A DNA stretch of 64,000 nt from ANME-2 cluster archaeon. GTDB taxonomy: Archaea; Halobacteriota; Methanosarcinia; Methanosarcinales; Methanocomedenaceae. A program made the position numbers and the translations under genes. Shown here one piece after another: positions 35,037 through 40,315 of this stretch. Each line of letters begins with the position of its first letter. The first letter of the stretch is position 1. The stretch spans positions 1 through 64,000 of the forward strand of contig JAAXOC010000065.1 of the NCBI GenBank assembly GCA_014237145.1, given 5' to 3'. A model generated the notes under the pieces. The model had not been told where the DNA came from, did no database searches, and saw only the letters and a program-made list of their open reading frames with translations.

Positions 35037-35933
35037 TTAACTAAACCCAGCAGCTCTGCTGGGGTTGGTTATGCCGTCGCAACAATTGACGAGTAGTGGA
35101 AGGCTGCAAAGCCTCTTTACTCTACCTATCTTCTCCGAAAGCTTCACCCCGGTCACATATGCATTCGAAAGGAAAACCGCTTCATTTGAAATATTCGAGT
35201 TTTTCATACTTACTTCCATACTAATACATTTTGTGTATGATGATCTGTCTAAAATTTCTGCTAGTTTATCCCATTCGACAGTACCTGAAAATGGGAGTTT
35301 ATGCTGGTCTGTTTTGCCATCGTTGTCATGAAGATGGATTGAAATTAAACGATCTTTTAGTTTCTCAAGCATTTTCAATCCATCTCCGATGTTCCCATGA
35401 CCTGAATCGTAGCATAACCCCAGAAAACTTGAATCGTATTCAGAAAAAAGTCTTGTTATTTCTGTATAATCATCATTCCTATAATTTTCTAAAGCGATTT
35501 TTATATTATGCTTCCAGGCATACGGTTTTATCTCATTTAATGATTTACGTAATATATTCCAATATATGTATTTTTCAGATTCATTATTCGGCGCACGCTC
35601 AAAATGTAGAATTATCACGTCACATGATAATTTATTTGCCATATAAATTCTATTCTTAACGAGTTCAACGCCAGCTATTCTAAGAGATTCATCTTCAGAG
35701 ATCCAATTATTGTTGACCCCCTCCGAAGCATGTAAATCTAACACTTTAAGGTTGTATTTTTTTAACCACATGATTATTTTATTTATATCGGATTCAGAAT
35801 AAATAAAATCAGTCTTATATTCATGACACCAATGAATATGTGTGAATCCGGCTTTAGATATCTTTTTAAGAAATGGTTCAGGATTTCCAGTATCTTTAAA
35901 ATAATCAGTTGTAATTGCTAATTCTAAAGACAT
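35037..35933 (-). CDS. sugar phosphate isomerase/epimerase, xylose isomerase-like TIM barrel
   Basis: A 298-residue TIM-barrel protein of the AP endonuclease 2 superfamily: GFTHIHWCHEY near residue 30, KVLDLHASEG, VIILHFERAP, IALENYRN with the metal-ligand Glu, GLCYDSGHGNIGDGL, ISIHLHDNDGKTDQHKLPF and a final SMEVSM. These are the metal ligands of the family. Substrate unknown. The last 25 or so residues (after GVKLSEKIG) run through an IS200-type hairpin, so the native C-terminus has been replaced by mobile-element sequence. The gene is AT-rich like the island. Confidence 0.75.
   Translation of the reverse strand: MSLELAITTDYFKDTGNPEPFLKKISKAGFTHIHWCHEYKTDFIYSESDINKIIMWLKKYNLKVLDLHASEGVNNNWISEDESLRIAGVELVKNRIYMANKLSCDVIILHFERAPNNESEKYIYWNILRKSLNEIKPYAWKHNIKIALENYRNDDYTEITRLFSEYDSSFLGLCYDSGHGNIGDGLKMLEKLKDRLISIHLHDNDGKTDQHKLPFSGTVEWDKLAEILDRSSYTKCISMEVSMKNSNISNEAVFLSNAYVTGVKLSEKIGRVKRLCSLPLLVNCCDGITNPSRAAGFS
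35046..35063. repeat. IS200/IS605-type hairpin, copy 1
   Basis: CCCAGCAG CT CTGCTGGG is a perfect 8-bp stem with a 2-base loop. On the minus strand its context reads CCAACCCCAGCAGAGCTGCT, matching CCAACC(G/A)CAGCAGAGCTGC at 55721-55740 and 55889-55906 beside an IS200 transposase remnant. It is probably an isolated IS200-type terminus. Confidence 0.5.
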
Positions 35934-36012: not shown

Positions 36013-36166
36013 CGGTTCATCTCCACATATGTGGGGGTACACTTATTCTATATAGAATTTCCTAGTATATATAGTATTTCACCATAATACACATAGTAAA
36101 CATATTTTCTATATAGATTACCCAAATCTACATATATCATTTAATCCCCACGCATGTGGGGAACAC
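36013..36166. CRISPR. decayed type I-E-like CRISPR array, three repeats
   Basis: Against the common I-E repeat (CGGTTCATCCCCACGCATGT then GGGGAACAC), 36138-36166 matches at 26 of 29 positions, and 36013-36042 matches at all but about four with one inserted base. Between them, 36075-36103 matches at about 14 of 29, with most mismatches being C to T or G to A, and leaves spacers of 32 and 34 bases. Spacing of one I-E unit on each side argues for a real, dying array. No cas gene is in the window. A solo repeat of the same type lies at 40482. Confidence 0.6.
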
Positions 36167-36212
36167 GCAGTTCCATGCATTTTCTTTTTTCGCTCAAAAA
36201 CAGGTGCACGGC

Positions 36213-36326: not shown

Positions 36327-36573
36327 TCATATCTTTCAATATCAACGAGTGAAGAGTCCAGTTAACGGATTTATATTTCATTATACAGTTTACTTACAAA
36401 AAAATCAATTTATGTGCAAGGCTCATGAAAATATATAGTTTATAAACAATAAAAAAGTACAAGGCCCCAAAAATCGAAAAGCTTATACACCACGAAACTT
36501 AAACAGATTTTAGAGCTACGTTGTATGATTGCGTAGAGGTGAAGATACATGATGAAGATGAGGGGGAAATAAT

Positions 36574-37581
36574 ATGACAGCACCGATTGGAACTCAGGAA
36601 AGAATTACCTATCTAGATCAACTCAGGCTTGAGGAGGGTATTGACAAGTTGAAGAAGGTCTTCAAGGAATCAGCCGCTCATAACAAAGAAGCTGCGGTTA
36701 ATTCACTTAATCATGAAGATTTGCAGTTTACTTCCCTATTTCTACTCCGGGATGAGATAAAGAAGTTAGCTATTCTTGAGCAATTGGGTGAACGGAATCG
36801 AATCTCTATGGAGATTGTGGAGGATATCCTTTCTAGTGAGAAGGAATCTCCTACCGCTTCTTGTCGTTTATCGATATGTGACCACATACAAATGGTTCAG
36901 TCCGTTTTGAGATGGATGCTGGAAACGGGAAGCAAGGATGACGGTTTGAGTGCCGAATTTACCCAGGTGCTGGACACCACGGCGTCACTTTTAACAACAG
37001 TATTCCGAGATGAAACGGTTTTACCTCTCATAGCCGATTTGATCTTTACTCGCTCCGAAAAAGAGTTGTTCAATCACTATCTAATTAGGGCTTTCTTTGA
37101 AGCACGCGAGCCATATACTTTGGATCTGATTGCAAATCGTCTGCGGTCTCCGCGAGTGAAAGAAGCTAACTTAGCGCGTCGTCTCCTTGGCTTTGTGCCT
37201 GGCATAGATGTCCATAAAGATACTGAAGGCGAGGTGCATTATCGGATTTTTCAGGCGTGGCTTGAAGAAAACAGTCCGTTTCTGCATTACCGTGGTGAAA
37301 GTTTCCAGGAGACCAGCAAACCGGTGCCCTATGATGTAGCCTTGAAGGGCAAATACCTGGGAAGGTCTGTGTCGGTTGATTCTGGAGAGATACTTACGCC
37401 TCTGACAAAGGAAGAATATCAAATTCTGGAAGAATTCGAAAATGAGGATGAGGCGGTAAAAGATAGTTTTGCAACACAATCAGAAGTGATGCGTTATCAA
37501 AGTTTCGATGATTGGAATACGTGGGTTCGCAGACCATTGAAGGAACGACAAAACGCACAAAAGTTGGGAGGTTCACGATGA
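36574..37581 (+). CDS. helical protein encoded with Tgl transglutaminase
   Basis: A 335-residue, entirely soluble, mostly helical protein; the paired helices through residues 30-215 (for example LLTTVFRDETVLPLIADLIF and HYLIRAFFEAREPYTLDL) suggest HEAT-like repeats. The C-terminal third is more polar and Glu-rich. GAGGGGG seven or so bases before the ATG is a strong ribosome-binding site. The stop overlaps the Tgl start (ATGA), so it is probably a partner, substrate or targeting protein of the transglutaminase. I do not recognise a family. Confidence 0.6.
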   Translation: MTAPIGTQERITYLDQLRLEEGIDKLKKVFKESAAHNKEAAVNSLNHEDLQFTSLFLLRDEIKKLAILEQLGERNRISMEIVEDILSSEKESPTASCRLSICDHIQMVQSVLRWMLETGSKDDGLSAEFTQVLDTTASLLTTVFRDETVLPLIADLIFTRSEKELFNHYLIRAFFEAREPYTLDLIANRLRSPRVKEANLARRLLGFVPGIDVHKDTEGEVHYRIFQAWLEENSPFLHYRGESFQETSKPVPYDVALKGKYLGRSVSVDSGEILTPLTKEEYQILEEFENEDEAVKDSFATQSEVMRYQSFDDWNTWVRRPLKERQNAQKLGGSR

Positions 37582-38321
37582 TCAAAATCGCTGGAACCAC
37601 TGTTTCTCCCAGTAACATTGATGGACAGTGGCCGTCAGGCAGCATTGGAATAAAGATCATTGATAGTATGGCTTCAAGTTGGGCGGTATATGATTACGAA
37701 TCGCTGGGCCAACTGCAGTTTGAACTGAAGTTGAGGATGAATATCATTGCTGCTTCCAGAGACCTTGATCAAAGTGGAGTGACCTTTGCCTCATTCTATT
37801 ACTCAAAGTGCAACTCAGACTACTGGTATTTCACGCGCGATGGCGGATTCCTGTTAAAACAGGGCGTGAACCCCTCCACCGCTATTATGGATATCTTTAC
37901 AAATGGTTCGAAATACTCATTTGAATGTGCCACAGCGATGGTTATTGTTTATTACAAAGCAGTTCTCGAATCACTTCCTGTGGAGACCTTTGACAGACTG
38001 TTTGCAGGACTTTATCTGCTTGGTTGGTGGTACAAAGACGAAGACCTTGGGTTTAGTAGTTATAAAAGAAGAGATTACTTCCCTGGGGACTATAGATATT
38101 TCAAGAACCCAGATGTAAATCCGAGGACGCCAGAATGGCAAGGAGAGAACGTCATTGACATGGGGGACGGCACTTATTATGGCCATCCCATTGGTATAAA
38201 GACTGCTGATCAGATGGTTGGTTTTTTAAATGAACATCGGAAACCATGGGCAAGATGGTCTGCCTTTCTGATGGATATGGCAGGTCATCCGGATTTCAAA
38301 TACCTGAGCAGGTACGAGTGA
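37578..38321 (+). CDS. tgl: protein-glutamine gamma-glutamyltransferase (Tgl type)
   Basis: The 247-residue protein is a close architectural match to the Bacillus spore-coat transglutaminase Tgl (245 residues). LQFELKLRMNIIAASRDL near residue 46, KYSFECATAMVIVYY with the nucleophile at Cys117 (Cys116 in Bacillus), YFKNPDVNPRTPEWQGENVI with the Glu of the catalytic dyad near 190, and YYGHPIGI follow the enzyme in order. It would make epsilon-(gamma-glutamyl)lysine crosslinks between proteins. GGGAGG precedes ATG 37578. There are no spore genes here, so its substrate must be different; the upstream helical protein is the obvious candidate. Confidence 0.8.
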   Translation: MIKIAGTTVSPSNIDGQWPSGSIGIKIIDSMASSWAVYDYESLGQLQFELKLRMNIIAASRDLDQSGVTFASFYYSKCNSDYWYFTRDGGFLLKQGVNPSTAIMDIFTNGSKYSFECATAMVIVYYKAVLESLPVETFDRLFAGLYLLGWWYKDEDLGFSSYKRRDYFPGDYRYFKNPDVNPRTPEWQGENVIDMGDGTYYGHPIGIKTADQMVGFLNEHRKPWARWSAFLMDMAGHPDFKYLSRYE

Positions 38322-38473
38322 GAGGTACTTCCATACGTGATCGGTTAAGGAATCTAATAGTCTCATTGCTTATGGTTTTTAGAAAAACCGAGTGGATCTA
38401 TGACCGATTAAGAGCTATTTGCAAAGAATTAAATATATTTACATAAATATCCTCTCCGTTCGAAGGGGTCTGA

Positions 38474-38758
38474 ATGTCGAAAAAGAGAAATCAATCAGAA
38501 AAACCAGAAGTAATAGAACAAGAGCTCAATACCATTTTTTCTGCAGAATTCCTTGAAAAAACTGCTAAAGAAACTGATTTCATCATACGAAATCGAATAA
38601 TAAATCCTTTAGTGATGTTTTGGACACTAACCTTTGGGTTTGGAGTGCAACACGAGAGATTATTTGCAAGTTTGCAACGTCTTTATGAAGATAGGGTACA
38701 ATCCTACAAAGGTACAAAACCGGCAATGAAAAAAGGTCATTGCTGTAGCCCTTGCTAA
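38474..38758 (+). pseudogene. transposase, N-terminal fragment
   Basis: A 94-residue frame reading LNTIFSAEFLEKTAKETDF, then NPLVMFWTLTFGFGVQHERL with FASLQRLYE, the N-terminal domain found in IS4-like archaeal transposases. After LYEDRVQSYKG the sequence departs and ends in a short Cys-rich tail. The catalytic domain is missing. It lies just before the truncated cstA and probably marks the insertion or deletion that removed the front of that gene. Confidence 0.55.
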
Positions 38759-38840: not shown

Positions 38841-39482
38841 TTGATTTGCGGTATTGTCATTGTCGGATTGAAATGGGTGTCCGGTGATCCTGAGGTGATT
38901 CCTTATCCGGAACTTCTTAAGCAAGGTTGGATACTGACATTCGGTACTGGTTACGGTCAGCTGGTAGCACCCTTCTTCGGAGTCACACTTGGCACTGTAG
39001 TTGGCATGATGATGATAAAAACCTTTGTGATGACCACACTGGATACTGCATCAAGGCTCGGCAGGTTCATAGGTACGGAACTGTTTGGAAGTAACGGTCT
39101 GGGCCAGACAGTTATGGATAACAGGTATGTATCTAATATAGTGCTATTAGTACTTGCAGGCGCACTGGCACTTACCAACAGCTGGATCAAAATCTGGCCT
39201 ATATTCGGATCAACCAATCAACTGATTGCAGCCCTTTCGCTGTTTGTGGTGACCATATGGCTCGTGGGAATGAAAAAGCCCCTAAGATATACACTCTATC
39301 CTGGTATTTTTATGCTGCTGACAACAATTGCTGCACTTGTGATCCTTGCGTTAAAATTCGTACCAAAAGGAGATTATTTACTTGGAGGTACCAGTATCAT
39401 TCTGCTTATCCTTGCAGTTCTTGTAGTAGTTGAGACCATATCCAGCTGGCGCAGGGCTCCAGAAAATAGTCAGCAGCTTTAA
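38841..39482 (+). pseudogene. cstA: carbon starvation protein CstA, 3' part
   Basis: A 213-residue frame from TTG 38841 with about five membrane segments and the CstA C-terminal pattern: FGVTLGTVVGMMMIKTFVMT, TLDTASRLGRFIGTELFG, then LTNSWIKIWPIFGSTNQLIA. CstA transporters (peptide or pyruvate uptake) are more than twice this length with 15 or more helices, and the front half is absent. The transposase fragment just upstream suggests loss by a mobile-element event. Not expected to transport. Confidence 0.7.
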
Positions 39483-39487
39483 TTGAG

Positions 39488-40315
39488 TTATATCGGCAGT
39501 CCAAGCCAGCTGAATACTCCGATCATCTTCAGGCTCATATATATCATCATAGTAATGAAAATATACCTCAACTGCTTTGCCGGCAGCTTATGAGCCACTA
39601 TTACACCTACTTGTGCCATCGGTACACTCGTAGCTGCAAGCACAAGCCATGAAGTCAGGTTTACATATCCGATCGAGTGAGGTGGGATCCCCTCAACTCC
39701 AAGTCCATTAATGATATAACCGAACACCCCCCCAATACTGGTAAATATCATAATGGCAGCCGATGTCCCGACAGCCTGGTGCATTTTAAATTTTAGTACA
39801 AGTATCATTACAGGGATCATCAATATACCTCCACCGATCCCTATCATACCGCTAACAATGCCGATCGGAAAACCCCATGCAGCCCATAGAACGGGATTAT
39901 CCTCAGGCTCTTGTCCTGTTTTTGGTGGTTTTATAGTAACCATCCGAAACGCACCTGCAAGAATTCCAAGAACAAAAATTATCTTTAACACTTCACCCGG
40001 GAGATGTGAAGCTATAGTAGCTCCGATCACTGCTCCGATTGCACCTGCGATACCAATAAAGATGGCTGCTCTCCACCAGACCGTACCCATCTTATTATGA
40101 CCAAAGGCACTGCTCAGCACTGTTGACAGCACAACAAGCAGGTTCGTCCCGAAAGCTACCCTAATTGCAATATCAGATGAAAATCCCATAGATGTATAGA
40201 CCCAGTACAGCACAGGGACCATGATAAAACACCCGCCAATCCCGAGCAGCCCGCTGGCAAGCCCGACCAACATCCCTGTGATGGAAAGTGCAATGACTGC
40301 AGTTATTAGATCCAT
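39488..40315 (-). CDS. sulfite exporter TauE/SafE family protein
   Basis: A 275-residue membrane protein with eight or so helices and the two TauE repeats: GLASGLLGIGGCFIMVPVLY near residue 18 and GIVSGMIGIGGGILMIPVMI near residue 150, each followed by AVGTS or AFGTNL. These exporters move sulfite, sulfonates or other small anions; the substrate here is unknown. The long loop at residues 115-130 (KPPKTGQEPEDN) is cytoplasmic or external. It ends 5 bases from the convergent cstA fragment. Confidence 0.85.
   Translation of the reverse strand: MDLITAVIALSITGMLVGLASGLLGIGGCFIMVPVLYWVYTSMGFSSDIAIRVAFGTNLLVVLSTVLSSAFGHNKMGTVWWRAAIFIGIAGAIGAVIGATIASHLPGEVLKIIFVLGILAGAFRMVTIKPPKTGQEPEDNPVLWAAWGFPIGIVSGMIGIGGGILMIPVMILVLKFKMHQAVGTSAAIMIFTSIGGVFGYIINGLGVEGIPPHSIGYVNLTSWLVLAATSVPMAQVGVIVAHKLPAKQLRYIFITMMIYMSLKMIGVFSWLGLPI

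Follow-up and report, generated by a model that had tools for sequence, protein, structure and literature searches.

Within the window, the 64,000-nucleotide stretch of an ANME-2 cluster archaeon genome analysed here, two genes lie together on the forward strand: a partner gene (36574..37581), whose 335-residue, all-helical product falls in no Pfam or NCBIfam family, and tgl (37578..38321), encoding a 247-residue protein-glutamine gamma-glutamyltransferase (Tgl). Both open reading frames were found where an initial annotation of this DNA had placed them, together with the ATGA overlap that it had described, in which the tgl start codon (ATG, 37578-37580) runs into the partner stop codon (TGA, 37579-37581). 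Also on the forward strand, Shine-Dalgarno-like sequences were seen ahead of each gene (GAGGGGG at 36560..36566 for the partner; GGGAGG at 37566..37571, within the 3′ end of the partner gene, for tgl), along with a putative promoter element (CGAAAAGCTTATAC, 36475..36488) that we take to resemble an archaeal BRE/TATA.

The window Tgl matched the PF20085 profile over positions 1-244 of 245 (327.9 bits, E = 4e-98; curated cut-off 23.7 bits), exceeded the cut-off of the NCBIfam equivalog NF002869 (329.3 versus 307 bits) and aligned with solved Tgl structures (7c9j, E = 5e-70; 4p8i, E = 5e-50), all in agreement with the original identification of a Tgl homologue with a matching Cys position. In the alignment, B. 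subtilis Cys116, Glu115, Glu187 and His200 (for their roles, see PMC6490927) correspond to Cys117, Glu116, Glu190 and His203 of the window protein; the Cys/Glu dyad (Cys117, codon 37926-37928; Glu190, codon 38145-38147, forward strand) is retained, the tunnel-entrance residues Phe70, Tyr174, Trp187 and Asn191 are kept, and Gln188 stands in place of the poorly conserved B. subtilis Arg185. As judged from its sequence, the protein is a new, full-length member of the Tgl family with an intact active-site set and, by analogy with the B. subtilis enzyme, is most likely still an active protein cross-linker. It resembles that enzyme (PF20085/NF002869; 4p8i) in length, full-domain match, dyad, spare Glu, His and tunnel entrance, but differs in the Arg185 position, in its unrelated upstream-coupled partner, in the lack of GerQ and in an archaeal host without endospores, which, to our knowledge, no archaea form. 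GerQ itself (PF09671), the Bacillus spore-coat substrate, had no match in the window or ANME-1 genomes, with a positive B. subtilis control.

The AlphaFold model of the partner was confident and all-helical (pLDDT 90.6, pTM 0.86), bearing out its earlier description as a helical protein; neither the PDB nor a viral library yielded a structural match below E = 0.001, no PDB sequence match was convincing, and none of the 48 family members scanned belonged to a Pfam or NCBIfam family. Signal-like or transmembrane stretches were found in neither Tgl nor the partner, which points to the cytoplasm as their probable site of action; the suggestion that an envelope layer might be cross-linked has no support in the sequence and was rejected on the same grounds.

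Relatives and linkage of the gene pair

When about 85,000 species genomes were searched, the nearest Tgl matches were, in order, three Methanophagales (ANME-1; 72-74% identical to the window Tgl), then Candidatus Petromonas tenebris (57%), followed by many Clostridia and by Paenibacillaceae. In a sample of 394 genomes of the same phylum, Tgl was restricted to the window genome, those of the three ANME-1 archaea and a single remote, secreted relative; the 99 relatives of the window genome that were searched, five of them from its own genus, all lacked it. In trees without an outgroup root (the partner tree being rooted at its midpoint), the archaeal Tgl copies formed one clade (support 100/99), situated between Bacilli and Clostridia, and the archaeal partners also formed one clade (100/100), nested in a clade of 22 sequences with Petromonas, Alkaliphilus and Clostridium (100/98). 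The window partner was 80-84% identical to its ANME-1 homologues, and thus better conserved between archaea than Tgl, and 40-41% identical to clostridial copies (41% to Petromonas). For the pair as a whole, DNA identity to ANME-1 was 81-89%, with dS of 0.23-0.58 and dN/dS of 0.26-0.41 (a pairwise average that may mostly reflect selection on the ANME-1 branch), values that point to recent passage between unrelated methane-oxidising archaea (ANME-1 and ANME-2) and to purifying selection on the pair on average. The initial annotation had proposed transfer from bacteria; this holds for the ultimate source, which we place in Clostridia-like bacteria, but the closest relative of the window pair is archaeal, a cassette of ANME-1, and not bacterial. 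Viral or plasmid carriage was considered separately and rejected: no relative was found in viral contigs or phages, and the sole plasmid match was in a Niallia megaplasmid.

A partner profile search found a homologue directly upstream of tgl, on the same strand, in 47 of 80 Tgl loci (44 clostridial and three from Methanophagales). Stop and start codons overlapped as ATGA or GTGA in 24 of these 47, many others lay within a few bases, and the placing of a Shine-Dalgarno-like sequence inside the partner 3′ end was common to most loci with the ATGA overlap. Across the 80 loci, most Clostridia had the partner, but none was found beside tgl in Bacilli or at some clostridial tgl genes, so Tgl is not always in need of it. 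The link between enzyme and helical protein thus recurs in other archaea (three of three ANME-1 genomes) and also in Clostridia; the partner did not originate in archaea, since clostridial tgl genes already have it coupled upstream, and the gene pair predates its archaeal copies. The pairs of Candidatus Petromonas tenebris (L006) and Clostridium mobile (L007) share the partner family and gene order with the window (and, in L007, the ATGA overlap), but differ in sequence (40-41% identity for the partner, 52-57% for Tgl) and in their bacterial setting.

None of the 40 genomes with the partner had GerQ, against 15 of the 25 without it; a reading of this mutual exclusion as substitution was set aside because the pattern follows taxonomy, with no clostridial genome in the set carrying GerQ. 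A spore-specific sigma promoter for the clostridial pairs was also rejected, as sigma-E/K/G motifs were not enriched upstream of them (a weak test, with guessed start codons).

Insertion site and host

The transferred cassette (promoter region, partner and tgl; 36469..38319, forward strand) aligned with ANME-1 loci L004 and L005 at 83-85% DNA identity as a piece of ~1.85 kb starting at 36469/36471 and ending at 38319. Homology begins just 5′ of a common promoter-like element (CGAAAAGCTTATA), the window form of which is kept in L005 as CGAAAAGCTTATAT, upstream of the same gene. To the left, 36340..36451 (forward strand) is 84.8% identical to a sister-species contig (G004:C249; L113 1957-1846), where the matching sequence lies directly upstream of an intact cstA (start at L113 1800, minus strand); part of this flank also matches elsewhere in the genus, so its orthology is probable, not certain, and the left boundary is slightly less certain. 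To the right, 38329..38665 (forward strand) consists of mobile-element debris native to the window genome, in which it also occurs elsewhere (82% identical to G000:C44, where the match adjoins an IstB-like ATPase fragment, IstB being named from sequence and not by profile), followed by a 3′ remnant of cstA, the gene for a carbon starvation protein (38841..39482, forward strand; 213 of about 545 residues; PF02554, E = 8.5e-22). The sister genome carries an intact, 545-residue cstA that is 93% identical over 38856-39635, and a further stretch of the window genome (C96), 76% identical to the remnant, points to a cstA paralogue. With truncated cstA and insertion-sequence debris beside the cassette, the region is as rearranged and rich in mobile elements as first described, and the simplest history would be that the cassette inserted into, or replaced, the 5′ part of cstA. 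The stop codon of the window Tgl was created at the right junction, with loss of a C-terminal tail present in ANME-1, which could alter regulation or targeting of the enzyme.

Further upstream in the window, a dispersed repeat of ~52 bp (35038-35091), present at dozens of sites in same-genus genomes, forms the end of a TIM-barrel open reading frame (35037-35933), and short palindromes resembling pieces of CRISPR repeats (CCCCACGCATGTGGGG) occur at 36020-36175, without an array.

The SSU rRNA of the window genome matched the archaeal model of Rfam at 1585 bits and contains a perfect site for what we take to be the ANME-2a-647 probe sequence. The ANME2-538 site (probe sequence from PMC12669819) is also perfect in the same SSU rRNA, confirming an archaeal host that is probably ANME-2a. 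An assembly chimera, or the misbinning of an ANME-1 or clostridial fragment, might be suspected in a 118-contig draft genome whose insert occurs in no sibling genome. However, the cassette lies on a single 135-kb contig, on which the downstream flank (40.8-46.5 kb) is 91-94% identical to same-genus genomes, so that the contig is not misbinned; both junctions join the cassette to group-native sequence, and the window copy falls outside known ANME-1 diversity, which together make such an artefact highly improbable.

ANME-1 islands and other archaeal Tgl

In the three ANME-1 loci, tgl is followed by a full, 650-residue protein-arginine deiminase (PAD) gene (L003 1692-3644; L004 7346-9241; L005 5003-6955) whose product matches both the catalytic domain of PAD (PF03068, E = 4e-129) and its middle domain (PF08527). 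The ANME-1 islands share with the window their 81-89% DNA identity, promoter element, partner and overlap, but differ in the PAD gene and in a Tgl tail of ~80 residues without a Pfam match (L004 6751-6984; L005 4458-4691), neither of which was found in the window genome. An rRNA adenine dimethylase gene borders the island on one side and a dihydroorotate-dehydrogenase-like gene on the other, and two same-genus genomes (G322 and G284) carry these flanking genes ~120 bp apart, without the island. A 2021 paper dismissed a single Methanophagales PADI match as misattribution (PMC8826395); that the gene occurs in three genomes, drawn from two genera, between native flanks and with empty sites to compare, argues against that verdict.

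A different Tgl-like protein is encoded in an archaeal single-contig, 3.0-Mb genome (G116; L086 1390-2373, minus strand), beside a GAPDH-like gene. This protein of 328 residues begins like a signal peptide, and its remote Tgl domain (PF20085, E = 1e-21) retains the Cys and the QGEN motif; it would represent a second, apparently secreted type of archaeal Tgl.

Discussion

The account that we favour, as a probable rather than a settled one, is that the partner and Tgl form a cassette of Clostridia-like bacterial origin, which passed into ANME archaea and, in a recent exchange, between ANME-1 and the window ANME-2, where the promoter-partner-tgl piece interrupts or replaces the 5′ part of cstA, and that it provides an active cytoplasmic cross-linker together with a Tgl-steering partner. 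Its history, apart from exact route and direction, is read from the sequences themselves. Going by the residues that are conserved and by how B. subtilis Tgl works, a glutamine side chain would form a thioester on Cys117 within the tunnel, to be resolved by a lysine that comes in from the opposite side, yielding an epsilon-(gamma-glutamyl)lysine bond. We infer that the translationally coupled partner is a Tgl-binding scaffold or regulator, possibly also a substrate, most likely binding Tgl and setting where and on what it acts; it may serve as scaffold, adaptor or pre-assembled substrate, by analogy with Bacillus, in which Tgl acts on pre-assembled substrates and its activity is governed by their assembly (PMC6490927).

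Other readings of function were also considered. The cassette could be a recent, functionless passenger in its ANME-2 host, brought by mobile elements, breaking cstA and now decaying: it adjoins mobile-element debris and a truncated cstA, is absent from five of the six genomes in the genus, and has lost the Tgl tail at its junction. Yet both frames are open, all catalytic residues, the promoter and both Shine-Dalgarno sites are retained, and the dN/dS relative to ANME-1, subject to the averaging noted above, indicates constraint, and we therefore judge a passenger unlikely. It is possible that the upstream protein is a Tgl substrate, as had been suggested initially. The stronger proposal, that it is the main substrate and is cross-linked into an intracellular polymer or shell, would fit the linked gene order, the pre-assembled substrates of B. 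subtilis Tgl (PMC6490927) and a partner with 19 Lys and 14 Gln and a low-confidence N-terminus and loop (residues 92-96) in the model; it sits poorly with a protein in which no repeat, filament-like or coat-like feature was found and which is modelled as well folded, globular and helical rather than as a flexible tail protein, so that we give this proposal only a minor share of belief. Alternatively, the partner might hold a dangerous cross-linker inactive until needed, an antidote-like arrangement that would explain why the two genes move together. Translation begins with the upstream gene and is coupled to that of tgl, precisely these two genes were transferred together, and the partner is the more conserved of the two among archaea (80-84% versus 72-76%), but Tgl stands alone, needing no antidote, in Bacilli and some Clostridia, no toxin-antitoxin family match was found in Pfam or NCBIfam, and B. 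subtilis Tgl activity is set by substrate assembly (PMC6490927), which leaves an inhibitor role improbable.

Our limited search of the open-access literature turned up no account of the partner family, of its conserved coupling to tgl or of the pair in ANME archaea. Tgl was previously reported as undetected in non-spore-forming bacteria, in a paper that counted only two clostridial species (PMC3533761). The locus offers a clean, recent transfer, with both junctions and empty sites visible, between distantly related archaea able to share seep sediments, and the ANME-1 islands reopen the question of archaeal PAD that had been dismissed (PMC8826395). A more far-reaching idea, which we consider doubtful, is that ANME use a transglutaminase and an undescribed helical adaptor family (with PAD in ANME-1) to modify and covalently cross-link their own proteins, which would make this the first archaeal cross-linking and citrullination cassette, exchanged between ANME lineages. 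Returning to the favoured reading of an active cross-linker with a steering partner, a gene known for protein cross-linking in bacterial spore coats is now found intact in a methane-oxidising archaeon, and its maintenance under selection in two ANME lineages suggests a use outside sporulation. The unnamed partner family, whose coupling to tgl is shared by Clostridia and archaea, is likely to be key to the role of Tgl in genomes without GerQ.
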